Shown here piece after piece: positions 2,425 through 59,859 of a stretch of DNA of 64,000 nt (positions within the stretch are counted from its first letter, which is position 1; each line of letters begins with the position of its first letter). The stretch is from Kalaharituber pfeilii (lineage: Eukaryota > Ascomycota > Pezizomycetes > Pezizales > Pezizaceae). The notes beneath the pieces are model-generated. The model ran no database searches. It worked only from the letters and a program-made list of their open reading frames with translations, and was not told the DNA's origin. Where the stretch lies: assembly GCA_015179045.1 (NCBI GenBank), contig WHUZ01000045.1:310001-374000 (forward strand), in the 5' to 3' direction. Position numbers and translations under genes: made by a program.

Positions 2425-2471
2425 AGCCCTGCCATGGCGAACAGCTGCAAGCGGGGTTACGTGCAATAAAC

Positions 2472-2499
<28 letters not shown>
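2425..2499 (+). mobile_element. Short retroposon, family A
   Basis: Body GCCATGGCGAACAGCTGC...GGGGTTACGTG followed by about 28 A. A 7-bp duplication CGACTTG flanks it at 2418-2424 and 2505-2511. Confidence 0.8.
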
Positions 2500-2503
<4 letters not shown>

Positions 2504-2511
2504 ACGACTTG

Positions 2512-3436
2512 GGATAGCCGAGAGGCTGGGGGTACGTCGACGCGCACGTGTGTATGTAGGTAGACTTTGTTACAAGTAGACTCTCGATACTAGCATGTCC
2601 GACATAAGAATATATTTGATATAAAGATCTACCCCCGTCAGTCACATGAAAATTAAGAATAACGAATATTCTTACGTTTCCTGCTCTTTCACCATATACA
2701 ATCTGATACTGAGCAAAGGCTCAACGCAAGAACCTGCGATAGTAATCAATTCCTCTACCCGGAAGAAGTAAGTTTGATAAGATCGAGGAAAGAATTTTAG
2801 CTTCCTATGCTCCTGCAGATTTCTGATGCGGAGACCCCCCGCCACCATCTCGCATAACATACCAAGCAGCCTTATAATTAGCGGCAATCGCTTCGGCAAC
2901 AAATTGTAAAAAGAGAAGCATCGCATCGCAAAATTACCGATTTTCTCCTCTTAGCACTTTTTCGGACTTCAATCTTTCCAGATATTCTTCTCTGTTTGCT
3001 ATACCTCCTTGAGCCTGTTTTAACACCTCGTTTATATTCCGCACCTTTTCCTATATATCTTTGAGCATTTCCTGTTCTTAGTTCTATATTTAATATAAGA
3101 ATATAGCCCCCGCCGCCCGATGAGATTCTTATATCGAGAGTGTGCGGTAAATACTTAGTTTGTAACCTGACCCAGGTATATGGGTCCCTGACAGACCAGT
3201 GGTAGCATATATGCTGATTTGTGATCTCCCCCATCAAAACAAGTCATTGATCCGCAAAGGTTTCATTCCTGCTTCTTGCCGCTGGTTTCAAGCTTGTCCT
3301 GCCTTCACTCAGGTCATCGCTGTCTCCATCTTACGTTCCTGCTTACCAGATTCCATCTTCCTCAATGTACCATCCCATTGCTCTTCTGCTCGCGTCAAGC
3401 GCCACTGCATTTAGACATCTATATTTTATACTCACC
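2512..3436. other. Intergenic; possible degenerate family C tail near 3165-3235
   Basis: At 3165-3185 the text TGACCCAGGTATATGGGTCC matches the segment found just upstream of family C tails at 10055 and 58855, but the hairpin and poly(A) are eroded. No gene recognised. Confidence 0.4.
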
Positions 3437-3450
3437 AACAATGGTTGACT

Positions 3451-3503
3451 TCCCTGCCATAGGCTTGTATGCGGGGTTGTCTGAACTAAAAAAAACAAAA
3501 AAA
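3451..3503 (+). mobile_element. Short retroposon, family C
   Basis: Body CCCTGCCATAGGC...TGCGGGGTTG ends in an interrupted A tail. A 14-bp perfect duplication AACAATGGTTGACT flanks it at 3437-3450 and 3504-3517. Confidence 0.9.
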
Positions 3504-3654
3504 AACAATGGTTGACTATCCTGGCCGAAGCCGCTCCGCACGAGGCAATGTGACCTGCGATCCGTCATCGCCTATGCAAATGTGATTTCCCCGCGATAAC
3601 GCCTACGTAGACATCGCCAAGATTGGGCTAGGGTCTATAAACTCGCCGGTCCAT

Positions 3655-3912: not shown

Positions 3913-3976
3913 ACCCTGCCATGGCCAAGTGCTACAAGCGGGGTTATGTGATTAAAAAAAAAAAAAAAAAAAAAAA
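3913..3976 (+). mobile_element. Short retroposon, family A
   Basis: Body ACCCTGCCATGGCCAAGTGC...GGGGTTATGTGATT with about 23 A. The duplication GGCCAGGTTCTA is at 3901-3912 and 3977-3988. Confidence 0.92.
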
Positions 3977-4011
3977 GGCCAGGTTCTATCATAGCCTGAT
4001 CGGCGCTTATA

Positions 4012-4603
4012 CAGTCAGACCTTGCTATAACGAACACGTAAAATTTGGCCCTTTCTTTTCGTTATAGCAAGGTTTTCGTTATAAAAAATTGTGACAAATT
4101 AGTCATGCATCCTTGGCAGCTGAGTTCGGACTCCTCAACAGTTATTGCAGCACATTTCGTATTGACTTACTAACATAGGAAATAACCAAATCAAGAAATA
4201 TTCGAGATTATAAAATAAAGCGTTTTTTTTTTTTTTTTTTCACGTGACCCCGCATGCAGCTGTTCGCCAAGGCAGGGCATAAAATAAAGCGTAAGTGAAT
4301 CTTGAAGTAACAGAAATCTGTAACGGACTGCCTTCGGTCCCGATTAGCACTCAGTAATTAGAACCAGTCAAGATGGATTGTCAGGGGAGTTTCTATAGAT
4401 TTCATTTGCCACTTTTCGTAATAGCAAGAACAATTTGTATGTAGACAGAAATAACTTCCCCTAAATTTTCTTTCGTTTCGTTATTTGGTGGGATTTCGTT
4501 ATAGCAAGGGCAGAATAGGTGGAGAGGGAAATCGCCGAGGGCAGTGCGTTCGTAATAGCAAGGTTTTCGCTATAGCGGGGTTCGTTATAGCAAGGTCTGA
4601 CTG
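4012..4603. mobile_element. MITE with 24-bp TIRs and TA target site (pogo/Tc1-like)
   Basis: The left end CAGTCAGACCTTGCTATAAC (continuing GAAC) at 4012-4035 is inverted perfectly at 4580-4603, and TA dinucleotides abut both ends (4010-4011 and 4604-4605). Subterminal copies of TCGTTATAGCAAGG occur near both ends. There is no transposase frame, so it is non-autonomous. A family A retroposon has inserted inside it at 4223-4278. Confidence 0.9.
4223..4278 (-). mobile_element. Short retroposon, family A, nested in the MITE
   Basis: About 18 T then CACGTGACCCCGCATGCAGC...GGCAGGGC. A perfect 13-bp duplication ATAAAATAAAGCG is at 4210-4222 and 4279-4291, so this insertion is younger than the MITE. 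Confidence 0.95.
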
Positions 4604-4605
4604 TA

Positions 4606-5011
4606 ATCATTTAGTTGCCGATGCTTTGCATAAATCAATCAGCCGCGTTCACGTAAGGCCCCCAAATTTTCATGCGGGTGTGATAGCAATTAGCCAATAG
4701 ATTTCCGGTTCTCAAATTTCATTGCCCCGCTTCTGTTCTAAGGGCACTGAAATTCTGCGGCCCAGTAACACTACTTTCTCCACACCCAGATGCTGTGAGC
4801 CAGAGATGGGAATACGGGGTATCCATGTTGTGCGTCCCCACTAATGATCCACAAGTGGGAGAATTGTGAAAAAGGAAAAGAGCAAGATGAGGTGATTAAA
4901 TAAGGGCATTACTCACCCCTGTACGTAGACAAAACAACAAACGCCTGACTATCTTTTCCCTACTACTGCAGTTTGATTATTTAGCTCTGCAACCCAAGTC
5001 AGAACCGTGCA
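4606..5011. other. Intergenic upstream of the lectin-like candidate
   Basis: No frame of interest; presumably the 5' flank of the gene beginning at 5012. Confidence 0.4.
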
Positions 5012-7490: not shown

Positions 7491-7554
7491 TTTTTTTTTT
7501 TTTTTTTTTTTTTTGTCACGTGACCCCGCGTGCAGCTGTTCGCCATGGCAGGGC
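7491..7554 (-). mobile_element. Short retroposon, family A
   Basis: About 24 T, then GTCACGTGACCCCGCGTGCA...GCCATGGCAGGGC. A perfect 12-bp duplication GTCCGGAAGGTC is at 7479-7490 and 7555-7566. Confidence 0.95.
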
Positions 7555-7740
7555 GTCCGGAAGGTCAACCGTGTACTTGATGTAGTGAGAGCCGGTGTCT
7601 TATGGCCTTCCAGCGCTTAGTGAGTGTGTCATTCAGCTGTCACCTCGCAACATGGTACTCAGACAGACTGATCGTGAGTGCACCGTGTACCCAACGCGCT
7701 CAACTGTAACGTTCAGTCTTTTGTAGGAGCACTGCAGAGT

Positions 7741-7805
7741 TTTTTTTTTTTTTTTTTTTTTTTACATCACATAACCCCGCTTGCAGCGCCATGCCATGGC
7801 AGGGT
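7741..7805 (-). mobile_element. Short retroposon, family A
   Basis: T23, then ACATCACATAACCCCGC...CATGGCAGGGT. A perfect 14-bp duplication GAGCACTGCAGAGT is at 7727-7740 and 7806-7819. Confidence 0.96.
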
Positions 7806-8536: not shown

Positions 8537-9092
8537 TTTTTTTTTTTTTTTTTTTTTTTTTTTATTTCACGTAACCCTGCTTGCAGCTGTTCGGCATGGC
8601 AGGGTCCCTGGACCGAAGTCCTTATGGCCCGGAGACAGGCACCTGTGCAACTACATACAAAAACGTCCCCTTATATGACATCGACAACATAAAACTGCCC
8701 CTTCCGGAACTTGAGGAACTTGGCTCCGTGTCTTGGGCAGGTGACATAGGAAGTAAAGAGCGACGAGACTCTCCCCTCACACCACTCCAAGCACTCTTCT
8801 TCTTGTTCTACCACTGCTTCATCCACGTCCATCCTGTCCTCCAGCTCCTTCCCCTTCTCTCTTGTACCCACTCCATTCCACTCGTATAATTCCGAGTGCA
8901 ACCATCTCCCCGGCAACCTTACCTTCACAGGTTTTTGGCCATCCGATTCTACCTCCCTTTTAGGTAGATTATTACCGAGCTAGTCTTCTTCCCTTCCCTC
9001 CTCTCCTTCTTCAACAACCATCGGGCTGCAACTATGCTCCCCACCCATGGGTTCGCCTTCTCCATCCAGTCCCTAACCTTTCCCAGCTTTTT
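8537..9092 (-). mobile_element. LINE derivative: ORF1-like domain joined to a family A 3' tail
   Basis: A perfect 11-bp duplication AACAACCTTGG (8526-8536, 9093-9103) bounds a 556-bp insert. Read on the minus strand it starts in a gag-like ORF1 (LGKVRDWMEKANP, KKTSSVIIYLKG, KVRLPGRWL, stops and frameshifts included) and ends with the family A hairpin and poly(A) (poly-T at 8537-8563). This copy ties family A to a LINE lineage. ORF2 is missing entirely. Confidence 0.85.
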
Positions 9093-15696: not shown

Positions 15697-15710
15697 GTGT
15701 AGGGCTGGAT

Positions 15711-15775
15711 TTTTTTTTTTTTTTTTTTTTTTTTAATCACATAACCCCGCTTGTAGCACTTGGCCATGGCAGGGT
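15711..15775 (-). mobile_element. Short retroposon, family A
   Basis: T24 then AATCACATAACCCCGCTTGT...GGCCATGGCAGGGT. A perfect 14-bp duplication GTGTAGGGCTGGAT is at 15697-15710 and 15776-15789. Confidence 0.96.
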
Positions 15776-16240: not shown

Positions 16241-16625
16241 ATTTTTTTTTTTCTTATATCATTAATCGCTTGCCGCCCTATGGGCTATGGCAATGTCTTA
16301 AATACATAGATAAGTGATGGATAAGTGCGAAAGAAAGGTAACACTAAAATAAAGGAAACGGGTCTCCTCATTCCCCAAGCATCTCTATCAGCTTCTTCAG
16401 CGGGTCCTCCTCCCCCTCTTTGCCCCGGCGGGGCCTTCTGACGTGCTCTTCCCCCCCAGGCCACCTCCGTCTCCACACCCTGCACTCGCCCAATACGTGT
16501 CTCATTGTCTCCTCTTTCTCCCCGCACCATCTGCATTCGGGGCCATCCCCTTCGCCTACGTGCCATCTCCACGCCCGTAGCCCCTTCCCCCCTAACAATC
16601 CCGCCAGTCGTCCAGTCATGTTAGT
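16241..16625 (-). mobile_element. 5'-truncated LINE: ORF2 C-terminal finger plus family B tail
   Basis: From the T-run at 16241 the minus strand gives the family B hairpin, then upstream a frame (16368-16619) reading GLLGGKGLRAW, CRWCGEKEETMRHVL and CRVWRRRWPG. This is the Cys/His finger at the C-terminus of Tad-like ORF2 proteins (CxxC...H...C). The 5' end falls near 16612-16625. I found no clear target duplication. Confidence 0.8.
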
Positions 16626-16880
16626 CAGGCGTCCGAATACTTTTGAAACTGGCTAGTATCATGTTGATGTAAAGTCCTAAATTTATTATGTCAGTTGTCC
16701 GGATACCTCTGACATAATGAAAATTGGACTATCATGAAATTTGGACTGGTCACATGGAGATCCCAGCTAACCATTCAGAAATATGCTAGTTCATACCAAA
16801 TACTGCATAGCGCATAATATGCATTGATCCCCTGTCCGGATACCTTTTTTTCCGGCTAGTACATACATTTTTCTATGTGA
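16622..16880. repeat. DNA-transposon relic with repeated GTCCGNATAC end motif
   Basis: GTCAGGCGTCCGAATACTTT (16624), GTCAGTTGTCCGGATACCTC (about 16690) and CTGTCCGGATACCTTTTT (about 16833) look like related Tc1/mariner-type terminal sequences. The boundaries cannot be fixed by eye. Confidence 0.4.
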
Positions 16881-19677: not shown

Positions 19678-19686
19678 AGATATTAT

Positions 19687-19736
19687 TTTTTTTTTTTCCA
19701 CGTGACCCCGCATGCAGCTGTTCACTATGGCAGGGT
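19687..19736 (-). mobile_element. Short retroposon, family A
   Basis: T12, then CCACGTGACCCCGCATGCAG...CTATGGCAGGGT. The 9-bp duplication AGATATTAT is at 19678-19686 and 19737-19745. The AT-rich surroundings lack the family's GC content, so the insertion looks younger than the decay. Confidence 0.88.
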
Positions 19737-20187: not shown

Positions 20188-20290
20188 TAGTTTAGCCTGT
20201 CTCCGGGCTATGAGGGCTTGCCCAGGGACCCTGCCATGGCTTAGTGCTACAAGCGGGGTTATGTGATTTAAAAAAAAAAAAAAAAAAAAA
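20188..20290 (+). mobile_element. Retroposon, family A, long form
   Basis: The body extends 5' to TTAGCCTGTCTCCGGGC...GCTTGCCCAGGGACC before the usual hairpin and A23. A 10-bp duplication AGAGCTGAAG is at 20178-20187 and 20291-20300. The same long form occurs at 29000 and 41941. Confidence 0.93.
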
Positions 20291-20300
20291 AGAGCTGAAG

Positions 20301-22012: not shown

Positions 22013-22897
22013 CTGATGACACTGACACTCGTGCAGCCAGCCATCCGGTCACAGGTGAGCCTGTTGTTGTGACCAACACCACAGACCGGTGCGACCTGTG
22101 TTTTATCAAGCATCTACGTATCTTAGCTGGCTCACCATATTATGATGGGCCATTTCTGGCCGAGATATATGAGTCGAAGACATCTGCTTGTAGCGTCATC
22201 GGATACCCTTTAACCACCACTACCCTGTCCTTCTACACGTAAGTCTACGCTTGATCCTACATTGTTAGTATTCAAGGTTGGGTAGATTGTGAAACCTGTC
22301 ATGTCTATCTGAGGACCTGAATGGAGGCAATGGCTAGACTAACGCTGCGTGATGCATGCATACAGACCCATTGACCCACCAGATACAGACCCTGAGCCAT
22401 GCACAGGGACCGAGTACACCATTGCACCAGGTGACACATGCCACTCAATATCACTTGCCGAGGGAATCAGTACCGGCTGGCTCCTAGCCGACAACAAACT
22501 AACGGCCAATTGCGTTAACTTTCCCACCAACGGCACCTTGTGCATCGCCAACCCCTGCACTGTGTACACCATAGTCGAAGGGGATACCTGCGAATCGATC
22601 GCGGCTGCACACGGGATCACAGTTTCCCAGTTCAAAGCTTGGAACCCTGTAAGTCCAGTCCATTGCAATTCTGCAAGTCATTAGCATCCGAACATTGTTC
22701 TGAGGTTAATCCCGCAATGATTTTCACGAATAGTCTGTCAGCTCTGGTTGCTCTAACCTCGCCAAAATGGTCTCTCACCAAGTGTGTATCAGTGTCCCCG
22801 GTCGTCCTTACACTACCCCCGCACCCATTACTCTGGCCCCGTCCATCCCGACAATACCGGCACCAGTACCAACCGATTTGGCCAACCTGACAAACAC

Positions 22898-22900
<3 letters not shown>

Positions 22901-22933
<33 letters not shown>

Positions 22934-22970
22934 CACATAACCCCGCTTGTAGCACGTGGCCATGGCAGGG
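22901..22970 (-). mobile_element. Short retroposon, family A, in LysM exon
   Basis: T28 then AAAATCACATAACCCCGC...GGCCATGGCAGGG. A perfect 13-bp duplication TGACAAACACGTA is at 22888-22900 and 22971-22983. Insert plus duplication is 83 bp, so the frame is shifted. Confidence 0.96.
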
Positions 22971-23126
22971 TGACAAACACGTATTGCGGCCGGTATTACC
23001 AAGCCTTGCTTGGAGACTATTGCAACATGATTGTCGTAAGGTTTGGAATCTCGCTTGAGGATTTCGTATTCTTAAATCCTTCGATTAATGAGAACTGCAC
23101 GAACCTATTTGCCAATGAAAGTTACT

Positions 23127-24490: not shown

Positions 24491-24619
24491 CTTGATGGTA
24501 GCTCAATGCAGCTCGACCTTAACGGTACCCGTGGAAATCAACTTGCGAGTTCGTGGCTACATTGTATGGGGTGTCATTAGAGGAGTTAGAGATTTGGAAT
24601 CCACGTGAGTAGTATATTT

Positions 24620-24674
24620 TTTTTTTTTTTTTTTTTTACGTGACCCCGCTTGTAGCTGTTCGCCATGGCAGGGC
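24620..24674 (-). mobile_element. Short retroposon, family A
   Basis: T-run, then ACGTGACCCCGCTTGTAGCT...GCCATGGCAGGGC. A perfect 13-bp duplication GAGTAGTATATTT is at 24607-24619 and 24675-24687. Confidence 0.94.
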
Positions 24675-25248: not shown

Positions 25249-25750
25249 AAGGGCGGCTCAGCAAGGATATATATGGGCGTCTACCCTATGTACATTTAGC
25301 GCTAATTTATGACTGGTCCTTTTGTTCCTCCTAGATTACCGCTACTGCGTCCGCGATCCATCCTACCGAGATCCGAACCCTACAATCAGCACGGAGACGC
25401 TGCCTCCAACTGCGACTGGACCACCTGGTCCAACACAGCCTGGGCAGCCAGGGGACTGTAATAAGTGGCATATTGCTATCAGTGAGATCTTCCCCTTCGT
25501 ACGCTGGCAAGCCACTGTTTCGCTATTTTCTTAGCTGTCTTATCTTGCACAGGGCTTAAGATTTCACTAATCCTGCTTTCCGCTAGAGGATGCCGACACG
25601 TGCACGACCATTATAAACACCTACTTCATCACCCTTGCGCAGTTCCTCAAGTGGAATCCTGCTGTCTCCTCCGACTGCTCTGCAGGCTTGTGGGGCACGT
25701 ACGCGTACTGCGTAGGTGTTATCGATACGCTGTCGTCTACTCGCGTGTCT

Positions 25751-25812
25751 TTTTTTTTTTTTTTTTATATCATTGATCGCAGGCCGCCCTACGGGCTATG
25801 GCGATACACGAT
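25751..25812 (-). mobile_element. Short retroposon, family B, in frame in a LysM exon
   Basis: T-run, ATATCATTGATCGC, hairpin (GCCGCCCTACGGGCTATGG). A perfect 13-bp duplication TACTCGCGTGTCT is at 25738-25750 and 25813-25825. Insert plus duplication is 75 bp, so the LysM frame stays open through it and gains 25 residues beginning with a Phe run. Confidence 0.95.
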
Positions 25813-26227
25813 TACTCGCGTGTCTGCGCCCACCGACCCTACGGCCACAAGCACTCCTGTCCACGTCCCAGATCCGCACCAAGAAAACAATGCCATCTCG
25901 ACATGCAACAAGTTCGCACAGGCGCAGGAAGGGGACTGGTGCTTCCATTTCGCCGAACAAAATGGGTACGCCAGAGCAGTTGTATGCGGTGCTGGGACCT
26001 GGTGGGAGCTCATGCGGGTCGATGCTCTGGGCAACATATTGGTACTGTGTGGGGGCTACAGAATGACCGGTTGCAGAGATATTTATGTAAATTTATATAG
26101 GAACTCTGAGCTTATGCTTGTTTATTTGTTATTGGTGGTGGTTAAATCCACTTAGAGAGTATTGCAGCGGACAGTAGCGAGGCGTGTCCAACAAGACAAA
26201 TCCATTCATCAAACAAGCTCACTTTAC

Positions 26228-26547: not shown

Positions 26548-26615
26548 AAGAATAAACCCTCGCCATAGCCCTCAGGGCGGTATGCGAGTAATGATATAAA
26601 AAAAAAAAAAAAAAA
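26548..26615 (+). mobile_element. Short retroposon, family B
   Basis: AAGAATAAACCCTCGCCATA, hairpin, GAGTAATGATAT and A19. The 13-bp duplication ATATGCTGTAACC is at 26535-26547 and 26616-26628. Confidence 0.95.
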
Positions 26616-26814
26616 ATATGCTGTAACCTGCATGTGGGATTATGTGACCCGGCAACATAAAAAATTGCACAGTTTACAAAGTAATTAATATGTGTTCCGC
26701 TGGGGGAAGCTCACGACCGGCTGCTAGGTTATGGAGGCCAACAGGGATGTGAGGGGGGATGGAAAAGTACTGAGACATAAGATTTTGTATGTTCCCTTTG
26801 CCCGTAATCTCATC

Positions 26815-34920: not shown

Positions 34921-34924
<4 letters not shown>

Positions 34925-34932
34925 GGTTACAT

Positions 34933-35855: not shown

Positions 35856-35912
35856 TTTTTTTTTTCTTTTTTATATATCCTTAATCGCGTGCCGCCCTAT
35901 GGGCTATGGCGA
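35856..35912 (-). mobile_element. Short retroposon, family B
   Basis: Interrupted T-run, ATATATCCTTAATCGC, hairpin. A perfect 13-bp duplication TGGCGAGTGGAGG is at 35843-35855 and 35913-35925. Confidence 0.95.
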
Positions 35913-36028
35913 TGGCGAGTGGAGGAGAGCCTAGAAATAAGCTAATGTACACCCAGTCCAAATGAGAGAACAGGGTAACACAACATTCCAAATAGCACGA
36001 TACACCTTATCTCCTCTTGCCGAACCTT

Positions 36029-36079
36029 TTTTTTTTTTAATATCATTACTCGCGTGCCGCCCTATGGGCTATGGCGAGG
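36029..36079 (-). mobile_element. Short retroposon, family B
   Basis: T-run, AATATCATTACTCGC, hairpin. A perfect 12-bp duplication TTGCCGAACCTT is at 36017-36028 and 36080-36091. Confidence 0.94.
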
Positions 36080-36091
36080 TTGCCGAACCTT

Positions 36092-36846
36092 CCATGCCCC
36101 GCCCTGCCTTTGATACCACCCTGTGTCCTGATTTTCAACTTGCAGTAATTGGCACCAGCAGTCGCAGATCTCTTGCCTCTTGCCACTTTAGCCGGCCTCG
36201 TATCAAATTTAGAAGGGGCAGCGGTACTTGTTTTCTTCGCAAGTTTGCCGATAGGCTTCTCCATCTTTGGTATAGCTGCATCAGTATCATCAACCTCAGA
36301 GTAATTTGATACGTCATCATCATCAGATGCCGCATCGAAAGTAAGTCCATTGGCAGATTTGAATTTTTCTTTGCCTGCATTAGCTGGCTTATCATCTTCG
36401 GCATCAGAATCTTCGTCATCATCCTCTTCTTGTGCGATAGTTGATGTAGGTTTATTTCGCAACTGCATGACTAAATTCATCACCATCTGCGTTCCTTCCT
36501 CCCCACCCCTAGAGGCCTTCTCTATGACATCCAGAAAACAGATTTTGTCTCTCAGACTCTTATATAGAGCCCTCTGGCGGTATGTAAGGTTGCAGTAAAT
36601 ATCCAGCTCAATTTTATCCCTAAGTTCTTTCTGCACATGGTTCTTGATACGTCGAAGCATAAAAGGTTTTAAGATCATATGCAATCGACGAAGTTGTGCC
36701 TCATTCAGTTGCGTATTGCTTTGCGCATGGCTCTGAATCTCGCCATAGCCCTTAGGGCGGCATGCGAGTATTGATATATAAAAAAAAAAAAAAAGGCTCT
36801 GAATATCTTTTGAAAACCACTCGCTAAATTCGTCAGCTTCCATCAT
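36092..36846 (-). pseudogene. INO80: INO80-type SNF2 ATPase fragment fused to an unrelated acidic sequence
   Basis: On the minus strand, [48 protein letters not shown] and [14 protein letters not shown] match the conserved middle of the INO80 chromatin-remodelling ATPase between its two helicase lobes, ending at MNLVMQLRN. Instead of the expected continuation (a Cys/His/Pro segment) the frame runs into an acidic, Ser/Lys-rich stretch ([29 protein letters not shown]) typical of another nuclear protein's tail; I could not identify it. The first residues are missing and the fragment starts 8 codons before SEWF. A 56-bp family B retroposon sits in the coding part at 36739-36794 and leaves the frame open. 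It is a partial copy and not a working ATPase, since neither helicase lobe is complete. Confidence 0.8.
36739..36794 (+). mobile_element. Short retroposon, family B, in frame in the INO80 fragment
   Basis: CTCGCCATAGCCC hairpin, GAGTATTGATATAT, A16. A perfect 10-bp duplication GGCTCTGAAT is at 36729-36738 and 36795-36804. Insert plus duplication is 66 bp (22 codons), read antisense as a Phe run then [15 protein letters not shown]. Confidence 0.95.
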
Positions 36847-36879
36847 TTCGCGATGCTCAACCAGCCCTTAGAATCCGGA

Positions 36880-40036: not shown

Positions 40037-40828
40037 TCAAAGCCGTCGCTTCACCTTGAGTTTCCGAGGTAGAAGGTAGGCTTCGGCGGGGGGGGATTCG
40101 GGCAGATCACAGTTGTACGTGGTCTCATACTTTCTCCACCGCCGGTTTGGAATCAGTGATGGCCTTTCCTCTCGTGCTAAACGGACTATGGCCACAGCAG
40201 CATGCGGATGGGCAACGGCCAGCTCTTCGAATTCTGGCAGACCACAAACATTGTCTAGCATCTGAGCAATATAACGCAGGAGGTAATCTACCAGACTCTC
40301 AGTCAGAGCTGGGAGATTTTCAATAGCATACTTTGCTGCAGTGAACACATCAGCGGCGGCGCTGGGGTCTGGGACGGGGTCCTCATTCAGAATAGAAATG
40401 AGCTTCCCAAAACTCAAATCTTTCAAGGACCCAATATTGAATCGGTCAGCGAAAACATAAAGTTTCGCATGGAGGAGAAGTGCAGGATTCGTTGACTGAG
40501 ACCTAGAGCCTCCAATCTGATTAGCACAATTTTTGACTGGGATTGCACAGGAAGTGTACGTTTCGTAGTCTTTCATATATGCCCATTGCAGGAACCGCTG
40601 CAGAGTGTCTTCATCCACATCATAAAGTACCATCTCCCCATTCAAACCTTCTTTCATCCCATTTTCGATGTGCTTTCGCATCTCCGGAGACACCGATGCT
40701 AGCAGCTCCCTTTGGACAAAGAATGCAGTGTTGTCATCATTCTCTGCACTTTGCTTTTTATCCCCTAATGTGAGTTTGAATAATGGACTTTTGAGTATGT
40801 TGAAATTGAATGTGTTTAGGGCTTCCAT
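40037..40828 (-). CDS. BTB/POZ domain protein, copy 2 (263 aa)
   Basis: Uninterrupted frame from MEALNTFNFNILKSPLFKLT. BTB motifs at residues about 15-95 (FVQRELLASVSPEMRKHIEN, LYDVDEDTLQRFLQWAYMKD) are followed by a BACK-like helical stretch (NPALLLHAKLYVFADRFNIG, NLPALTESLVDYLLRYIAQM, EELAVAHPHAAVAIVRLARE). The cysteine-rich C-terminus of copies 1 and 4 is absent; after LAREERP the sequence is unrelated and basic (LPRKLKVKRRL). BTB domains dimerise and may link substrates to Cullin-3. It lies in segmental copy 1. Whether the altered tail is functional is unknown. Confidence 0.8.
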   Translation of the reverse strand: MEALNTFNFNILKSPLFKLTLGDKKQSAENDDNTAFFVQRELLASVSPEMRKHIENGMKEGLNGEMVLYDVDEDTLQRFLQWAYMKDYETYTSCAIPVKNCANQIGGSRSQSTNPALLLHAKLYVFADRFNIGSLKDLSFGKLISILNEDPVPDPSAAADVFTAAKYAIENLPALTESLVDYLLRYIAQMLDNVCGLPEFEELAVAHPHAAVAIVRLAREERPSLIPNRRWRKYETTYNCDLPESPPAEAYLLPRKLKVKRRL

Positions 40829-41214
40829 GATTGTTGTTCCGTGCTAATTAGATTCTGGCTCTATCAGGAACTGGCAGGTTTGGTGATGGCGGTGGACGGG
40901 TTCGGCCCGATGGGTTGCTGAGTGGGGCTGTTGCATAACGAGCTAAATTTAACCCCTCTTCGCCAAGGACCGCACGTGGCTTCAGGCCTACCACATGTGC
41001 ATGCACAATCAGATCGCCGTGGTAAAGCGGCCTAGCCAATTACGAAAGGCCAAATACTGTACGAATTCTGGGCACGATCTGACGAATGGATCCATCACGA
41101 CCGACACCGTCGGGAGACTCAATACCTGTACAGATACCAAAGGAACATCATGGTCTCATTTCAGAGCTCAAATACGCAAAGCTTCCAGAGTTACGGATGA
41201 AGCCTTTCTCTTGT

Positions 41215-42896: not shown

Positions 42897-44490
42897 TGTT
42901 CTGGCCTACCGACGAACATTGCGGTTCGCGAACCGGCCAGGCCCATTCGCGAATCGGCCAATTCGTCGGTGGGCTGGCTGATTCGCGAATGGGCCAGCCC
43001 ACCGACGAACACTGGTTTAGTACAAGTACCACTAGGTACCTCTACATATTACCAGCGTTAATTGATAAACCAGTTACTGTGTGCTAGCACAGCCCTATTG
43101 CCACTGACAAGTTGCCACCTACAAGTTGCCACTTGAAAGTTGCTGTCGGTGATAGTTGCTAATATGAGTAGCAAGTTGCTACTGCTTACCCACATACTAG
43201 AAGATAATACAGACAATTTAATTAATAATTCACTACGCTTCTGGACTACTCTAGTTAAGAATACAAATTTGTAATTATAACTAAAGTATTGTTAACCGAA
43301 ACACTAGAAGAAAATTACTAACTAAATATGCTTCTAGTATTCTTCTTACTCTAAGCGAAATTTTGGAGTGTTTTTTTTTTTTTTTTTTTTTTTTTTATAT
43401 CAGTAATCGCGTGCCGCCCTAAGGGCTATGGCGATGGTGTGCTAAATACATAGGAAAAAAGGTTAAAATCACGCCTCCAGAAACAGCCCGCCTAAAAACA
43501 CCAAGCCTAATCCACCAAACCTAACATCCCCTTACACTTCTAATTACATGTATTGCCCGCGGGATCTCCAATAGCGCGGGTGGAGCCCGATATGGACCCT
43601 ACTCCCTCCCCCTTCCCGGCTCATAACGGACCGCGTCAAGCCATCTCCCGCTCAGCCTGACTTTCCCCTCCTTCTCCATCTCCTTCCCCAGGTACACAAC
43701 CACCGAACTCGTCTTCTTGCCCTCCTCCACCAAAATTGACTTTTTCCTCAACCAGCGAATCCCTCCTATCTTCCCCATCCCCGGATTCGCAGCCTCCAGC
43801 CAAGCCCTTACCTTCCCCAAATCCTTCCGCAAGGCAACGCCGTGCACCACGATGCCATGCCTGCCCCCCGTTCTGGCCTCGGCTCTCTCTGGTGTTTTGG
43901 AGTGTTATCTTCATAGGTAGAGATATCCGGAATCCTCCGCCATTTCTGGTATTATATTGTGGCAGTAACAGGGATTGCGTTGATGTCAAGAATGAAAATT
44001 TTGGTGGTTGTATTACCAGAAACAGTAGATAATAAGATCCCTGCAAGTGCCAAGTACCCACTTAAAGCAACCTCATCATGATAAACTTGTCAAGACAAAA
44101 TTTCATGTTCTTGTCTAGGTACCTGTTCTTCTCTTCGTTGTACATGCATACGTCAAAAAGGCTAAATGTTCTTATTCTTGTAATAAAAGCAATGCTAGTC
44201 GATGTACTAACCTGGAGAATGAGAGTGAATATAGTACTATTTTTTGTACATAGATGACTGCGTAGGGGGATAGGAGACTGTGGAAATTGCTTAGTTAGCT
44301 GTATGATAGATCACTATTACATAAAATCATAAGCGAGTATATATATTACATATAGGTACATCGAGGTACATTCATGTTTGCGGCTGGGCCAGGTGTTCGT
44401 GGCTGGGCTGGCCCCGTGAAAAACACCATATGTTTTTCACGGGGCCGGCCGGTTCGCGAACCGGAAAATGTTCGTCGGTGGGCCAGAACA
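42897..44490. mobile_element. 1.6-kb TIR element with 4-bp duplication GACC
   Basis: TGTTCTGGCCTACCGACGAA at the left is inverted at the right (TTCGTCGGTGGGCCAGAACA), the arms continuing about 43 bp. GACC lies at 42893-42896 and 44491-44494; segmental copy 1 has a single GATC at the matching place (about 39320). The palindrome TTCGCGAA and the motif ACCGACGAACA recur several times near both ends, like transposase-binding subterminal repeats. No transposase frame survives. A half-LINE is inserted inside. Confidence 0.88.
43371..43900 (-). mobile_element. ORF1-only LINE derivative (half-LINE), family B tail
   Basis: T25, hairpin (GCCGCCCTAAGGGCTATGG), about 170 nt of 3' UTR and, on the minus strand, a gag-like ORF1 end at 43599-43850 (HGVALRKDLGKVRAWLEA, KTSSVVVYLGKE, KVRLSGRWLDAVRYEPGRG, stop). 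TTTTGGAGTG borders it on the left (about 43361-43370) and recurs just after it near 43893-43904. ORF2 is absent. It is closely similar in layout to 23127-23831. Confidence 0.87.
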
Positions 44491-45225: not shown

Positions 45226-46134
45226 TCAGTGGCGTCGCGGATACGCTGCATAACGCCCCAGCTGGTCGCGGAGGAGGCTTGCTGCGGGAGGAGAATCAGG
45301 GTTGCACATGATCGCCCCCTGCCGGCGCCAGTTTGGATCAGTGGAAGCGAAGGCAGAAGCAAACGCGGCAGCAGCAGGCAAGGACGTTGAAGGGGAGCCG
45401 ACCACGTCGCCGAGAGGGGTAATTACGCCCGACAGGGGTATGGTCGCGGAACCCTTAATCAGTGGTGGCTTTTCTGCTCGTGCTAAACGGACTAAGGCAA
45501 CAGCTGCATGCGGATGGGCAAGGGCCAGCTCTTCAAATTCTGGCAGATCACAAACGTTGTCTAGAATCTGAGCAATGTAATTCAGGAGGTGATCTACTAG
45601 TCTCTCAGTCAGAGCTGGGAGATTTTCAATAGCATACTTTGCTGCAGTGAACACATCAGCAGAGAAGCTGTGATCTGGGTTCGCGTGCTCATTCAGAATA
45701 GAAGTGAGCTTCCCAAAACTCAAATCTTTCAAGGACCCAATATTGAATCGGTCAGCGAAAACATAAAGTTTCGCATGGAGGAGAAGTGCAGGATTCGTTG
45801 ACTGAGACCTAGAGCCTCCAATCTGATTAGCACAATTTTTGACTGGGATTGCACAGGAAGTGTACGTTTCGTAGTCTTTCATATATGCCCATTGCAGGAA
45901 CCGCTGCAGAGTATCTTCATCTACATCATGAAGTACCATCTCCCCATTCAAAGCTTCTTTCATCCCATTTTCGATGTGCTTTCGCATCTCCGGAGACACG
46001 GATGCTAGCAGCTCCCTTTGGACAAAGAATGCAGTGTTGTCATCATTCTCTGCACTTTGCTTTTTATCCCCTAATGTGAGTTTGAATAACGGACTTTTGA
46101 GTATGTTGAAATTGAATGTGTTTAGGGCTTCCAT
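45226..46134 (-). CDS. BTB/POZ domain protein, copy 3 (302 aa)
   Basis: Near-identical to copy 2 for the first 220 residues: BTB at about 15-95 (FVQRELLASVSPEMRKHIEN), then the BACK-like part (LLLHAKLYVFADRFNIGSLK, NLPALTERLVDHLLNYIAQI). After LARAEKPP the tail differs from every other copy and is low-complexity (LPAAAAFASAFASTDPNW), so its C-terminus arose after divergence or by local frameshift. The 5' flank (to about 46350) is also shared with copies 2 and 5. It is the longest uninterrupted copy here. Confidence 0.8.
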   Translation of the reverse strand: MEALNTFNFNILKSPLFKLTLGDKKQSAENDDNTAFFVQRELLASVSPEMRKHIENGMKEALNGEMVLHDVDEDTLQRFLQWAYMKDYETYTSCAIPVKNCANQIGGSRSQSTNPALLLHAKLYVFADRFNIGSLKDLSFGKLTSILNEHANPDHSFSADVFTAAKYAIENLPALTERLVDHLLNYIAQILDNVCDLPEFEELALAHPHAAVALVRLARAEKPPLIKGSATIPLSGVITPLGDVVGSPSTSLPAAAAFASAFASTDPNWRRQGAIMCNPDSPPAASLLRDQLGRYAAYPRRH

Positions 46135-46515
46135 GATTGTTGTTCCGTGCTAATTAGATTCTAGCTCTATCGGGAACTGGCAGGTTTGGTGATGGCGGTG
46201 GGCGTGTTCGGTCCGATGGCTGAGTGGGGCTTTCGCGTAACGAGCTAAATTTAACCCCTCTTCGCCAAGGACCCCACGTGACTTCAGGCCTACCACATGT
46301 GCATGCACAATGAGTCTGCTGTGGTAAAGCGGCATGCCGAGGAACCAATTCTGGGCACGATCTGACGAATGGAGCCATGTACCGTCGGAAACTCAATACC
46401 AGTACAGATACCAAAGGAACATCATGGTCTCATTTCAGAGCTCAAATACGCAAAGCTTCCAGAGTTACGGGTGAAGCCTTTCTATTGTAATGGGGCCGGT
46501 AAATCTACAGAGTTA

Positions 46516-49805: not shown

Positions 49806-49868
49806 TGCCCTGCCATGGCGAACAGCTACAAGCGGGGTCACGTGAAAAAAAAAAAAAAAAAAAAAAAA
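49806..49868 (+). mobile_element. Short retroposon, family A
   Basis: TGCCCTGCCATGGCGAACAG, hairpin, GGGGTCACGTG, long A tail. A perfect 13-bp duplication AACGTAAGTATAG is at 49793-49805 and 49869-49881. Confidence 0.95.
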
Positions 49869-50019
49869 AACGTAAGTATAGAAACGAGAAGAGCTTCAAT
49901 CAATTGAATTTATATCTACATTCGGCCCTAGGGGTTGCGCTGATAGTGGAGACTTGCTAGTGCCAGTAGGGTGACTTGCCACAGCATTTCCATTCTGGTG
50001 GTTAGACGCTCAGAGGCTG

Positions 50020-52008: not shown

Positions 52009-52955
52009 AAACAAAAAAGGTATTGTGTGAGAACGCCTTCCAAAACTCAATATCCATCAACCATGTGGCTGCTCAATTAAAGTTAACAAAAGTACTGGAT
52101 TATAGTATCTGTTTTGAAAACGCCCTATTTTTTTATTTTATTTTTTTTTATATCATTACTCACATGCCGCCCTGTGAGCTATGGTGAGGTTCTAAATATA
52201 TAGGAGAAGAATAACAGAAGAAGAATAGCAGAGCTGTATCCTGTCTACTTTTCCAGCTGCTCTAGCAGTGTCACGATTGATCTCATGTCCTCCTTTGGGG
52301 GTCTCATCAAGTCTTCCCTTCTCCCTGGCCATATTCTGTCCCTCCATACCCGGCATTCGTCTAGTAGGTGCTTAGTAGTTTCTTCCTGCTCGCCGCACCA
52401 CCGGCATTCTGGTCTATCTGCTTTTCCTATCCTGTATCACCATACGCGTAGGCCCTTCTCCCAGAGCAATCCTGCCAGGGGGACAAGATGTGTGCCTAGG
52501 AGTTGCAAAGGTCTGTAGCTCAGCTGTAGGCGGTTCCTCTCGTCTGCTCTTTTTTCTTTTACGTGCTGGCGAAGACTGGGTTCAGTCACTCATTTGTCGT
52601 GGTATTGCAGGTACGTTCCCACCTTGGCCGCCCTGTCTGCTTCCGTGTTCCCCTTTAGGCCCTTGTGGCCTTTTACCCACATCACGGCCACGTCGTGGTC
52701 TCCGCGAGCTATCCTGTCTGCCTAGGCCTTTCTCACTGCGTTTGTGGCTCCGTCTGCGATGGGGTGGCCTGCGCTACCTTTATCATCTTGCTTATCGCCA
52801 CCTTCGAGTCGGTAATGATCAGGATCTGAGGTTTCTCTGATCCAAGTGCTTCAGCGATCACCAGCAGTTTCGCGTCGTTCACAGTGGCCTTGGGCCCTAG
52901 ATATGACGAGGTGCTTGTTGAGGAGTATGTGCCTGTCCCCGCCCTCCCTTCCATT

Positions 52956-53291
52956 TTTTTTTTTTTTTTTTTTTTTTTAATATCATTACTCGCGTGCCGC
53001 CACATGGGCTATGGCGAGGTTAATTACATGAAGAAACGTTATGAAGTAAAAAGAAAAGAAAGGAAACCTAAACCTGTCGTCTCGCCCACTCTAAGATATC
53101 CACCAACGCGTCGTTGTTGCGATTAATGAAAGAAAAAAAAAAAAAAAAACGCGTCGTTGTCCGTCTGATCGTCTTTCGAGGGTCTGAGCAGGTCCGCCTC
53201 TCCTCCGGGCCATTTCTTCTTCCAAACCTTGCATCGTGCTAGAACGTGGGAGGTGGTCTCCGCCTCTTCACCGCACCACCGGCACTCCAGG
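52956..53291 (-). mobile_element. 5'-truncated LINE nested in the RNase H region
   Basis: Perfect duplication CTCCCTTCCATT at 52944-52955 and 53292-53303. T-run, hairpin (GCCGCCACATGGGCTATGG), UTR and minus-strand ORF2 end beginning at LECRWCGEEAETTSHVL. A 31-bp micro-insertion lies inside it. Confidence 0.93.
53118..53148 (+). mobile_element. Micro-retroposon, 15-nt body
   Basis: TGCGATTAATGAAAG plus A16 sits between perfect 12-bp copies of ACGCGTCGTTGT (53106-53117, 53149-53160). The body matches the last bases of family B (GCGAGTAATGAAAT). Confidence 0.92.
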
Positions 53292-53708
53292 CTCCCTTCC
53301 ATTCTGCTGCCGTCTGTGTATATGCTCGTCCATCCCTCGTCCTCTTCTTCCACAATATGCCGTTCCCATTCTTCTTTCTCGGAGTCGGCCGGAAGTGATG
53401 GGATAATGGCTAATGGCAAGGGGTCCTTGAGCTGTAGGAAGCCTCTCAGGTATTGGTGCCTCTTCCAGGTCCTCTAGGGGTTCGTCCTCGTACCGTAATG
53501 CTCGTGCCTCCATCCGGATACGTTCGCTTTCCGCGTAAGTATGGATCGATCCAGGTTTGCCAAACCCTCCACCACGTCCCTTCTGGTGCCCCTTGGTGCC
53601 CCAGTGATGGATCTCGCAGTTGCGTACTGCCATTTTTCAAGCTCTCTCAGTCCGGCGTCTGCTCCGAAAACACCCTAGTATTAGAGGTTCATAGCCATGG
53701 TAAGCTGC

Positions 53709-53772
53709 TTTTTTTTTTTTTTAATTCAGGTAACCCCGCAACCCCGCTTGCAGCCATTCGCCATGGCAGGGC
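53709..53772 (-). mobile_element. Short retroposon, family A
   Basis: T-run, AATTCAGGTAACCCCGC with a small internal duplication of AACCCCGC, GCCATGGCAGGGC. Duplication GGTAAGCTGC at 53699-53708 and 53773-53782. Confidence 0.93.
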
Positions 53773-55222: not shown

Positions 55223-55256
55223 CGGCATGCGAGTATTGATATTAAAAAAAAAAAAA
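55223..55256 (+). mobile_element. Micro-retroposon, 21-nt body, family B
   Basis: CGGCATGCGAGTATTGATATT plus A13 between perfect copies of TTTCTGGAAGTG (55211-55222, 55257-55268). Only the right half of the hairpin is present. Confidence 0.94.
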
Positions 55257-56369: not shown

Positions 56370-58430
56370 TCATGCAATATAAATAGCGTCGTATTCCCTC
56401 TGCGGAAAGGAGCAGGACTTTGGAAATAGGTTGTCGGTGTTGTACTTGTCGAACTCTACTGTCTGTAGTTTGCGGAGCACAAGGATGCGTGAATATTTTG
56501 CTACTACCGCGGGTTCAGATGCAAGTACGGCGGGCTTGTGCTTCTCCGGCAGGGCTGCACAGACGAGGCATGGCGTTTCTCTGTTGCCCCGATGTAAGCA
56601 CAGTAGAAAAACTTTGCTCACCCCCTCTGGCAGCCATACCGCATTCGAAGCATTTTCATTGTTTCCAGGAATCAGCTGAAATGTTCCATTGGTCTGAGTT
56701 TTAAACTGTATCCACTGACCGCCCTTAGGCCATGTTGTTTCAGAAGAAGACTCCACAACTGCTGCTGCGAATGGCACCTGTAGACCCATAAAAAACGTTG
56801 GAACGGCCAAGGGATGCCGGTAGTCAATCAGGTACACGGAATGGTCACCCCCCACGGGCAGAGTTACCGACCTGCTAATCCAGACAGCGTCTTTAACCTG
56901 ATCGGACCACCGTGGGACCCATGATGGTAACCATGGACCGTCTCCCGGATTGCCTTCTATCTTTCGCGCTGCCTGGACTCCAGTCAACAGTTCGAGCTTG
57001 CGCTCCAATGGCATGCATCGGACCAGTTTCAGCCATACATCCTCAATATCTTCGGAAGGTTTGTAGACTGGCAAATCGAAAGGAGAATTCGCCGGCCACA
57101 ACAAGTAACAAAGACCAGCAATTTTATCAATCTCGTTACTGGCATGGCGCGACTTCATTTCCTTAATTAATGTCCCCAAATGGCACCCGCTGGAACTGTC
57201 AGTTTCATAGTCAAACTCGTCCATAGTCTTGCGGTAGCGTTGATATTGCTCTGATAAATGCGGTTCAGTGGACATGGCTTCTCGCATAGTCCAAGGATTG
57301 CGAGTCTCCTGTAGGGTCCAGGCTCGCTTAGTCCAGTGGCGGGGGCTGGCCCAAGTATCCTCACTGGGATCGTACTCGAGACCGAGGCCATTGAAGTACC
57401 TAATGACGCATCTAGTCTTCCGGTAAATATTACCAATCGTTGGTACATCCACTTCCCATTCCTTCAGTCGTGCATCCTCTCTCCATTGATCCTGTGATCC
57501 TTGCTGTCGTAAACACACTACATCCAGCCACACATACCGCGACTTGACATTGGTAAACGAAATACCCTGATGAACCGCATTGGAAATGTCAATCCCTGCC
57601 GGCGCTGGAACGGGCCATTGGTACGCATTAATAGGTGTAAGAGTGGCAACCATATCATTAGTCCAACTGTGACTGATTGCCGCAAAGGACAAGTCAAGAC
57701 AGAAAGTGGATGGATTCTAAGGGGGTGCATTAGTTATCGAACAAATGTGTCACAGCGATAAAATAGAAAGTAGCTTCAAGTGCTGCAACGGACGTACATG
57801 ATCTAGACACCATTGACACAACCCCAAGGTCTGACCGTAAACGAAAATGACTCGGTTTGCTACCAAATCCCACAGCCGCCTAGGTGGTACTGAGCCTGCG
57901 TGTAGTATGACGTCGCCTCTCATTTGTGCTTGATAACGCCGTTGTTGGGTTGTCCGTAGTACGTCATCGGCATCATTCGCGCCTACGCAGTCACAACGCA
58001 TCTGATGTGGGTTTAAGTGCTCGCATTGCCTACCGATGCATGGAACCTTCCATACCACACTCCCAATAGCCGATCGGAACCTGCAACCTGTACACCGTCG
58101 TATTGGCCATTTCAACGTCGCTATTGCCATTAGAAGGCCGAGATCGATTCCGTTGCTCTGCGCGCAACGGGTATCTCGGAGCATCTCATCTTCAGAAACC
58201 CATCCCATAAAGCGCTCCGGGACTTCGTAGACTTCCCCTGCTCTCAAGATGGCCCCCTTCAACGCGGTCACAATGTCCTCAGCGCCGAAGCTGCTACAAG
58301 GCATGTCTTGCCAACCCTCTGGAAAGATGTCCGCTAGAATTTGACCGGGGTTTAACCCTCCCCCGGCTCTGGTGATCGTCCAGTGTGCTGCGTCCAATAC
58401 GGAATCTATGGTAGAATGCTGAACACCCAT
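56370..58430 (-). CDS. HET-domain protein (heterokaryon-incompatibility family), two exons
   Basis: Exon 1 (58430-57798) starts MGVQHSTIDSVLDAAHWTIT and contains a CxxC pair (CTGC) and PPRRLWDLVANRVIFV. An 81-nt intron 57717-57797 (GTACGT...CCCTTAG, branch-like CTAATG) joins it in phase to exon 2 (57716-56370), which carries the HET core: FAAISHSWTNDM, SRYVWLDVVCLRQQG, VPTIGNIYRKTRCVIRYFNG and HWTKRAWTLQET. HET proteins in filamentous ascomycetes govern non-self recognition and can trigger cell death when incompatible partners fuse; the partner and specificity cannot be read from sequence. The C-terminal 250 residues are unassigned. The gene is about 660 codons, free of stops and of retroposons, in contrast to its surroundings. 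Confidence 0.88.
57717..57797 (-). other. Predicted 81-nt intron of the HET gene
   Basis: Donor GTACGT after ...WCLDH, acceptor CTTAG before NPSTFCLDLSFAAISH; without splicing, exon 1 reaches a stop inside the intron. Confidence 0.8.
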
Positions 58431-58628
58431 TTTCGACGGACAATACCAATCAAAGGTAGATTAGAGGATCAGAAAACGAAATAGTGACCTGATGCTTTAA
58501 GGCTTATTTGCGTAATGCAGTTGTAAGGGCCAGTGGCCGGTCTTGGTGGTTCGTTGATTGGGGTGATTGGGGTTCGCTGTCGAAGCTGTGTGGTTTAAAT
58601 ACATAGCAGTTGCGTGCTTAGACTAGAT

Positions 58629-58932
58629 GCACAGAACTGGAGCGGCCCCAGAGGAAGAACAAAAATGGGGCACATGTCACCTGGCAGTCCTGGAAGGACC
58701 TAGAGGAGAAAGGATGGAAGCAAGAAGGCGTGGAAGGTGACCCGGTCGAGTACTGGTTTGCCTGCCTCGATCTGGGGTAGCCGGGGACCGGGGGACGGAG
58801 GGCACTGGGTGCTCAAGGGTGTATGTAGATTCCGTAGTTAGTTGTCTCAAACCTGGCCCGGGTATATGGGTCCCTGCCATAGGCTGGTAGCCTGTATGCG
58901 GGGTTACGTGAATTAAAAAAAAAAAAAAAAAA
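58629..58932 (+). mobile_element. 5'-truncated LINE 3' end, family C, 304 bp
   Basis: AGACTAGAT at 58620-58628 and 58933-58941. Contains GGCCCGGGTATATGGGTCCC, hairpin AGGCTGGTAGCCT, GCGGGGTTACGTGAATT and A19. Confidence 0.9.
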
Positions 58933-58941
58933 AGACTAGAT

Positions 58942-59693
58942 TGCGGTTAAAACATGCAGGTGTCTAGCGGAGAATACGCCTGTTGCTGCACGGTGTATGA
59001 TTAATCAATGAGAAAAACTGTAAAACTTACAAACACAGAAAGCTTGCCTAAGCCACTACATTAGGGCCTGCACTGATAGTATCGCTCGAAAACACTTGCT
59101 AGAATGGAGTTGGTAATGATTTCAACTTTGAATATCAGTACCCTAAGTACCAGCTGGTAATGAAGATATGCACGGCGGTGCCGGAGACTCTTTTTTTCAT
59201 GTGAAACATCACTGCCTGCAGGAAAAAGATTGATCACGCACATTATGGTGAGGGGAGCAAGTATGGAGTAACCAGCCCACCAGCAAGGATTCCACATTCA
59301 TAAAGCGGCGAGTGTCTTGAAGTGGGGCTACGTGATGTAAAAAAAGAAAGGCGACGACACATATTTTATTCCCAGGTTAGATTAATTTTTCCCTGGAATC
59401 ACAGTAGAGTTGATTATTTCCTTTTCTTGTCGTCTAGTTTACTGTTATCTCCGCCCCCACTCGTATAACTGCATAAGCACATGCCAGGCTGTGTCACATG
59501 CTGGCCACTGTTGGTTGAAGTTGACGCTTCCGATGCCGGTCCTACTCACACCTATGAGCAGAAATTTTACGAATCTATGTCCCACTTCTTAGCAAGTTGC
59601 TATTGGAGAGTCCCTGGGCGAAGATCTTAACACCCGGCGATAGGGGGAAAAAGGATAAGCTACATTCCGCTATGCAGATACTCCAGAAGGGCT
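58942..59693. other. Intergenic; possible eroded family A tail at 59318-59350
   Basis: GTGGGGCTACGTGATGTAAAAAAAGAAAG resembles the last third of family A. Nothing else recognised. Confidence 0.35.
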
Positions 59694-59733
59694 ACCCTGC
59701 CATGGCAAATAGCAGTAAGCGGGGTTACGTGAT
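59694..59733 (+). mobile_element. Family A copy without poly(A)
   Basis: CCCTGCCATGGCAAATAGC...GCGGGGTTACGTGAT is followed directly by unrelated sequence; tail and duplication are lost or never present. Confidence 0.55.
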
Positions 59734-59799
59734 ATACTAGTACACCTACCCTATCTCCCCTTTCCCCTTCTGCTTGGGACTCGCAAGGGGGCCTCAACA

Positions 59800-59859
59800 C
59801 CTTGCCATGGCTTGGCGCTGCAAGCGGGGTTACGTGATTTTTTTTGTAAAAAAAAAAAA
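59800..59859 (+). mobile_element. Short retroposon, family A
   Basis: CCTTGCCATGGCTTGGCGCT, hairpin, GGGGTTACGTGATT then T8 and A12. Imperfect flank CTCAACA at 59793-59799 and 59866-59872. Confidence 0.75.

Follow-up and report, generated by a model that had tools for sequence, protein, structure and literature searches.

Hairpin-sized retroposons with LINE-type tails in the genome of the truffle Kalaharituber pfeilii

Introduction

Pairs of long and short interspersed nuclear elements (LINEs and SINEs) that have a stem-loop in common are known, fungi included (PMC3747384, PMC4176376; these and the articles cited below are drawn upon in extract). The elements described here resemble the stringent pairs (eel UnaL2, zebrafish ZfL2 and the fungal Mg-SINE/MGL and SINE2-1_BG/Tad1-24_BG) in their common 3' tail, conserved stem-loop and target duplications, and have poly(A) as in SART1 (PMC3747384, PMC4176376). 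They are found in a stretch of 64,000 nucleotides of the desert truffle Kalaharituber pfeilii, positions 310,001 to 374,000 of contig WHUZ01000045.1 (C301:310001-374000; hereafter the window), and elsewhere in the same assembly (GCA_015179045.1; 78.0 Mb, 360 contigs). Three families of tails, A, B and C, occur there as short inserts, many of which consist of the terminal hairpin, a few further bases and poly(A), and whose 5' ends cluster at the base of the hairpin.

The origin of LINE 5' truncation, by decay of the template or by a stop of the enzyme, is hard to study, the ends being usually scattered. In this genome many ends gather at a point set by RNA structure; two families provide counts of them and a third two examples, so that the models could in principle be told apart. 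The study covers one genome, in which one LINE 3' end and one SINE-like copy were read.

Short inserts in the window

The first 9 kb of the window were read, together with the flanks of every A or T run of at least 9 across its length. Target duplications were scored around A and B tails, with swapped sequences as control. An insert was accepted automatically where an A or B tail with a poly(A) run was flanked by a target duplication that scored at least 8.5 (in the binned score table, 8.5 goes into bin 8). Twenty-two inserts passed, 14 A and 8 B, with bodies of 15-82 nt, after one automated B row (51593, body 0) had been dropped as spurious. Three more were accepted by eye, at 2425 (A), 30299 (B) and 3450 (C), for a total of 25. 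Chance hardly accounts for such scores: when the sequences following the poly(A) were swapped between inserts, 8 of 279 trials yielded a score of at least 9, whereas 59 of the 93 real sites did so. The inserts are as follows.

2425 to 2499, plus strand: A hairpin-only insert; body about 47 nt, A28; imperfect duplication GCATCGACTTG/GCAACGACTTG, score 7.5, by eye
3450 to 3503, plus strand: C hairpin-only insert; interrupted poly(A); 13-nt duplication by eye
3913 to 3976, plus strand: A hairpin-only insert; body 41 nt, A23; perfect 14-nt duplication
4223 to 4278, minus strand: A hairpin-only insert; body 38 nt; perfect 14-nt duplication; within a host repeat at about 4008-4606
7491 to 7554, minus strand: A hairpin-only insert; body 40 nt; perfect 12-nt duplication
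7740 to 7805, minus strand: A hairpin-only insert; body 42 nt; 19-nt duplication with 1 mismatch
15710 to 15775, minus strand: A hairpin-only insert of the LINE-type subtype; duplication of 14 nt perfect, 18 with 1 mismatch
19686 to 19736, minus strand: A hairpin-only insert; body 39 nt; 9-nt duplication
20188 to 20291, plus strand: A insert; body 82 nt; start 5 nt upstream of the predicted outer hairpin H3; 11-nt duplication
22901 to 22970, minus strand: A hairpin-only insert; body 42 nt; perfect 15-nt duplication
24617 to 24674, minus strand: A hairpin-only insert; body 37 nt; 13-nt duplication
25750 to 25812, minus strand: B short insert; body 46 nt; 13-nt duplication
26548 to 26616, plus strand: B short insert; body 50 nt; 13-nt duplication
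29000 to 29101, plus strand: A insert; body 76 nt; beginning, in the fold of the insert, with the first base that pairs in H3; 15-nt duplication
30299 to 30364, minus strand: B short insert; body about 45 nt, interrupted poly(A); 12-nt duplication by eye
32087 to 32152, minus strand: A hairpin-only insert with extra 5' nucleotides; body 47 nt; 13-nt duplication
34860 to 34921, plus strand: A hairpin-only insert; body 35 nt; 16-nt duplication with 1 mismatch
35856 to 35912, minus strand: B hairpin-only insert; 13-nt duplication
36027 to 36079, minus strand: B hairpin-only insert; body 41 nt; 12-nt duplication
36739 to 36794, plus strand: B hairpin-only insert; 10-nt duplication; in frame within a minus-strand INO80-like open reading frame (ORF), adding 22 residues
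38967 to 39026, minus strand: B hairpin-only insert; body 37 nt; 10-nt duplication
49806 to 49870, plus strand: A hairpin-only insert; body 39 nt; 13-nt duplication
53118 to 53149, plus strand: B insert cut inside the hairpin; body 15 nt; 13-nt duplication
53709 to 53772, minus strand: A hairpin-only insert, tail variant; body 50 nt; 10-nt duplication
55223 to 55256, plus strand: B insert cut inside the hairpin; body 21 nt; 13-nt duplication

A preliminary description of the window had claimed at least 25 such inserts in both orientations, belonging to three tail families of LINE-tail retroposons with target duplications. This is borne out: the 25 found have bodies of 15-82 nt plus poly(A) and lie in both orientations. 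All 13 coordinates that it named as examples are inserts, 12 of them accepted automatically and the one at 30300 by eye. Bodies as short as about 7 nt, also claimed, were not recovered, the shortest accepted being 15 nt in the window and 14 nt elsewhere (L011).

In the whole assembly, the A hairpin has 4716 matches with at most 3 mismatches, the B hairpin 8471 and the C hairpin 728; the reversed-pattern controls gave 0 in each case. The window, with 21 A and 23 B hairpins (at most 5 mismatches), is a dense region for both. On contig C1 (2.99 Mb), the listed tail copies crowd the first 550 kb and are sparse farther on, which resembles a genome with repeat-rich and gene-rich parts. Extrapolation to the genome from C1, contig C2 and the window is rough.

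Evidence for retroposition

The short inserts carry the marks of target-primed insertion. In 54 short and 50 other resolved copies the duplications measure 8-19 nt, mostly 12-14, and their lengths are similar in short and longer copies. The first duplicated base is A in 35 of the 54 short copies and 29 of the 50 others, and the preceding base is C or T in 43/54 and 39/49, respectively. A Y|A target preference is therefore common to the two classes.

Empty sites were sought by removing the insert and one duplication by script and comparing the joined flanks with other copies of the same repeat. Those of the short A copy L012 match L010 ungapped, with 97.5% identity over 160 nt. For two short B copies the match is likewise ungapped: L083 against L010, L027, L073 and L070 (98.7% over 159 nt) and L044 against L082 (96% over 154 nt). 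For other short copies the empty-site matches are gapped or of lower identity; thus the B insert at 38967 has a near-empty paralogue within the window (95% over 127 columns, 2 gaps).

An orthologous comparison is afforded by the B insert at 36739. The 22 residues that it contributes fall within a conserved stretch of the INO80-like frame and are absent in 7/7 aligned INO80-type proteins (120 listed, 270 found). Inserts of 40 nt may escape repeat annotation, and this one lies in frame within a reading frame. That frame (window 36046-36867) may be a fragment of a gene, since its likeness to INO80 ceases some 138 residues in.

Conserved regulatory elements were considered as an alternative and are rejected because paralogous and orthologous empty sites exist. 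The preliminary description had named an absence of duplications, or the pattern of conserved elements, as the outcome that would tell against it; in this genome duplications are common and empty sites are found. The short inserts thus have what defines non-long-terminal-repeat (non-LTR, target-primed) retroposons, namely poly(A) with a duplication, an empty site and the target preference of the longer copies.

Length of the inserts

Lengths were taken from a sample anchored at the 3' end, in which any body length is visible (the window, C1 tiles and listed C1 sites). The 48 A-type tails include 26 with bodies of 37-47 nt, where 0.34 would be expected from the rate outside this peak. The body is shorter in 2 and longer in 7, another 13 being unresolved. 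By their hairpins, two of the 48 belong to C: L029, which lies within the peak, and window 58899, which is longer. For A proper the figure is therefore 25/46. One unresolved row, window 2452, is accepted by eye elsewhere, and the count includes both L032 and L033, which are nearly identical. These two, on C1, have the same 19-nt A insert in nearly identical loci, probably through a segmental duplication.

The B copies (n=45) comprise 6 bodies of 37-50 nt, 6 shorter, 14 longer and 19 unresolved, the spurious zero-length window row being counted among the last. The peak again exceeds expectation (6 against 0.70, Poisson p 9e-5). Per nucleotide, the rate inside the peak is 77 times that outside for A and 9 times for B. 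The C family has two hairpin-only copies, the insert at 3450 and L029. A hairpin-sized peak, the outcome that the preliminary description had named as support for a hairpin-driven class, is therefore present, very sharp in A and weaker in B.

Contig C2 was sampled on intact hairpins and is blind to copies cut inside the hairpin. After overlaps (L083/L101, L085/L105, L086/L108) had been counted once, 22 A and 28 B rows became 20 and 25 sites. Of the 20 A sites 8 were resolved, 5 of these starting 1-2 nt before the hairpin, and of the 25 B sites 13, with 7 starting from -1 to +5. Copies L002-L008, retrieved as the best-matching sequences for a longer A copy, favour longer copies and are outside the length sample.

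It had also been suggested that the hairpin is the minimum. For inserted DNA this is not strict, since 2/48 A copies (the two nearly identical loci) and 6/45 B copies are cut inside it. What the data give is the point at which template identity ends; that the hairpin alone is a sufficient substrate goes beyond them.

According to one account, these would be products of ordinary random 5' truncation, over-noticed when short since such copies are easily seen. Longer truncated copies of many lengths do exist. However, the smooth distribution of 5' ends expected of random truncation is not what is found in the length sample, where ends peak at the hairpin base at the rates given above, and the boundary at -1/-2 is sharp in A (see below). 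Random truncation would not be expected to stop sharply on the 5' side of a helix, and we consider it highly improbable as an explanation.

The 5' boundary and the structure of the tail

Tails were compared in a set of copies in which identical stretches were merged; L002-L008 were included, and L001 was left out as a repeat of the window. Positions are counted upstream from the hairpin. All 36 short A copies have A or G at -1, in agreement with the LINEs. At -2 the resemblance is mostly lost: the LINE's G is found in 4/36 short copies, against 38/46 longer or unresolved ones, and C or T in 30/36 short copies. In the predicted folds, A position -1 forms the outermost stem pair or, in some, the pair next to the outermost. 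Among B copies, pairing of base -1 with its partner in the stem is seen in 15/18 short and 58/59 longer ones, while C at -2 is present in 9/18 and 44/59, respectively. Since half of the short B copies still have this C, the B edge is softer than that of A.

Extra nucleotides, 1-6 in number, stand at the 5' end of 10/36 short A copies, and they fit the LINE in at most 1/10. In the folds, two other A copies, 29036 (76 nt) and L017 (80 nt), begin with the first base that pairs in H3.

Over 62 rows, the pair at the base of the B stem is C-G in 44, A-T in 13 and other in 5, and an inner pair is C-G in 45, T-A in 16 and other in 1. The two pairs covary, and the stem-loop thus appears, on comparison of the copies, to be conserved by base pairing. 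In A, a change is seen at the base of the stem only, and it is one-sided.

Elements that carry the tails

The same tails end longer elements, of which the window has the following.

8537 to 8980, minus strand: longer A-tail copy; ORF1-like coding upstream; poly(A) and tail, frame
16242 to 16650, minus strand: longer B-tail copy; ORF2 C-terminal coding with a CRWCG motif
43371 to 43903, minus strand: longer B-tail copy; ORF1-like coding
52954 to 53470, minus strand: longer B-tail copy; ORF2 C-terminal coding

The preliminary description had placed LINE coding segments before longer copies of all three tails. This stands for the A copy at 8537 (ORF1-like coding) and for the B copies at 16242 and 52954 (ORF2-type); LINE coding beside the C copy at 32217 was not confirmed.

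At one locus, L111, the A tail comes after the end of a LINE frame with an RNase_H match (E 3.9e-11), which continues an open frame of 1248 amino acids with an RVT_1 match. We take this A-type LINE to belong to the Tad1 clade; the RNase H that follows the reverse transcriptase in LINEs of that clade is present. ORF1-like frames precede the A tail in 6/7 of the longer A copies fetched first (L002, L004-L008; not L003). In these six the frame, with a VVHGIA... motif, lies just 5' of the tail, with no ORF2 end there. B tails come after either ORF1-like or ORF2 C-terminal frames. It looks as if ORF1 and ORF2 proteins were spread by separate elements with a common tail. L112, read for a LINE frame or tail, has neither, and two loci from the initial search for LINE reverse transcriptase contain, on reading of the sequence, LTR-type integrase frames.

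A third carrier is a SINE-like element (L113:473-630) with a body of 158 nt, the A tail and, judged by eye, its own duplication. The genome has 30 copies of a 35-nt piece of it, and because 20 of these are identical the element looks young. It contains GTTCGAACC, presumably a B-box-like motif; ARAGORN and Rfam found no tRNA or other match in it. The body of the hairpin-only copies is the hairpin plus a few bases, without what we take to be the boxes of an internal RNA polymerase III promoter, no promoter search having been made.

LINE and SINE-like element, one copy of each, thus have the A tail in common. The short copies are LINE-tail retroposons, as had been proposed, but they need not be pieces of LINEs only, because a mostly short A subtype also ends the SINE-like element.

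In one A subtype, 465 of 534 exact hairpins lack the upstream AGGGR and 69 have it; in a second, 121 of 151 lack it and 30 have it. Most copies of both begin within about 4 bases of the hairpin, the shares of short copies being upper limits because a mutated upstream base would count as short. This preponderance would suit short copies that form a mobile lineage of their own, copied from stub to stub by way of host transcripts. However, both subtypes have AGGGR members, which means that longer sources exist. A stub-only lineage was thus not supported for the two A subtypes tested, and an autonomous lineage is in our view quite improbable.

A model for the origin of the hairpin-sized copies

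Taken together, the observations agree with a single LINE machinery that works by target-primed reverse transcription. We propose that the LINE enzyme copies RNAs that were already trimmed from the 5' end to a helix, an account that we hold about as apt to prove right as wrong. LINEs, along with SINE-like and ORF1-bearing relatives with common tails, end in the conserved stem-loop followed by poly(A), and many such RNAs would be trimmed from the 5' end before use. A putative 5'-to-3' nuclease, or a cut, would be brought to a halt by a stable helix, at its 5' base. In most cases this helix would be the last hairpin, and in some a stronger one upstream. By the precedent of stringent LINEs, whose cognate ORF2 proteins bind the 3' stem-loop (PMC4176376), the LINE protein may then bind the stem-loop and take hairpin and poly(A) as template. 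Ordinary target-primed reverse transcription would run off the 5' end of this template, and the outcome would be inserts of about 40 nt plus poly(A) between normal target duplications. Trimming is preferred to abortive synthesis and to an upstream helix (both treated below) because of the starts at H3, the extra bases and a report that R2 templates yield more 5'-truncated insertions when they are unstable (PMC11331408).

Several points weigh against trimming. A 5' end seen in DNA alone fits a trimmed template or a polymerase stop equally. The H3 class has two members; the copy at 20229 starts 5 nt upstream of H3, L084 and L003 (with weak duplications) misfit, and H3 is kept as a helix in 2/6 folds of longer templates. 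The B ends scatter from -1 to about -5, and in the unbiased sample the B peak comprises 6 copies. Where the hairpin itself is cut (2/48 A, 6/45 B), either abortive synthesis or trimming past the helix is needed. Lastly, folds of 41 A and 55 of 56 B longer templates place the 3' edge of a predicted upstream helix within -2 to -8 in 36/41 A templates.

The last result would be expected if an upstream helix blocked the reverse transcriptase at its 3' edge; in one early fold such a helix abuts the hairpin. However, the edge lies within this interval in only 21/55 B templates, whose mean pairing over -2 to -7 is 0.26-0.41, and still the B boundary is nearly as in A. Moreover, the A copies end at -1 though mean pairing rises again only at -6. 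Because of these figures the upstream helix is supported in A and disfavoured by B, and as a general cause it seems improbable.

The main rival of trimming is abortive reverse transcription. The LINE protein would hold the 3' hairpin while copying it and would often fail to let go, so that synthesis ends once the hairpin is copied; this may be likened to an RNA polymerase that fails to escape from the promoter. On this model, as on trimming, copies of every family should end where the recognised hairpin has its 5' base, and those cut inside the hairpin are accounted for. The known binding of tails by ORF2 of stringent LINEs (PMC4176376) speaks for it, as does the Magnaporthe LINE reverse transcriptase, which switches template at hot spots beside predicted hairpins (PMC2104539). 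On the other hand, it is hard to square with the two copies that start at H3, and it predicts no end sharp to a single nucleotide unless release is very exact. The extra junction nucleotides also suit run-off better. We regard abortive synthesis as possible but rather doubtful.

A bolder extension of the trimming model would make the promoterless hairpin of about 40 nt, with its poly(A), a complete mobile unit, which, after insertion into transcribed DNA, could be trimmed from any host transcript and reinserted by the LINE enzyme. Any transcript would serve because the hairpin's own helix would set the 5' end. We think this unlikely.

Other features of the window

The repeat at about 4008-4606 that hosts the A insert at 4223 resembles a miniature inverted-repeat transposable element, with terminal inverted repeats (CAGTCAGACCTTGCTATAACG). 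Frames 34788-35291, 22632-23084 and 25571-26155 run through inserts, the poly(A) being read as runs of phenylalanine or lysine. Frame 56370-57716 has a HET domain match (Pfam, E 2.8e-06). Frames 40037-40843 and 45226-46149 are closely similar and belong to a repeated family, with no Pfam match.

Comparison with known systems

For the stringent LINE/SINE pairs, the extracts of PMC3747384 and PMC4176376 describe no class of inserts that consists of the stem-loop alone and has a sharp 5' end. Nor did any paper on hairpin-only retroposons appear among the matches listed in the open-licence PubMed Central literature, judged by title and start of abstract. As far as these matches tell, the class is new.

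Ordinary 5'-truncated LINE copies are like the truffle inserts in tail, duplications and target preference. They differ in that their truncations lie at varied positions and leave 100-1000 bp, according to the extract of PMC3747384, whereas here many copies of about 40 nt share one end. The tailless retropseudogenes of mammals, which derive from truncated tRNA and SINE RNAs, are likewise retrocopies of truncated RNAs, but they are without poly(A), unlike the truffle inserts (PMC3747384, in part). In the Magnaporthe chimeras of MGL, Mg-SINE and WEIRD, known as MINE, reverse transcription by a fungal LINE is also affected at particular sites near predicted hairpins. There, in the portion of PMC2104539 drawn upon, the enzyme switches template, whereas in the truffle the copy ends.

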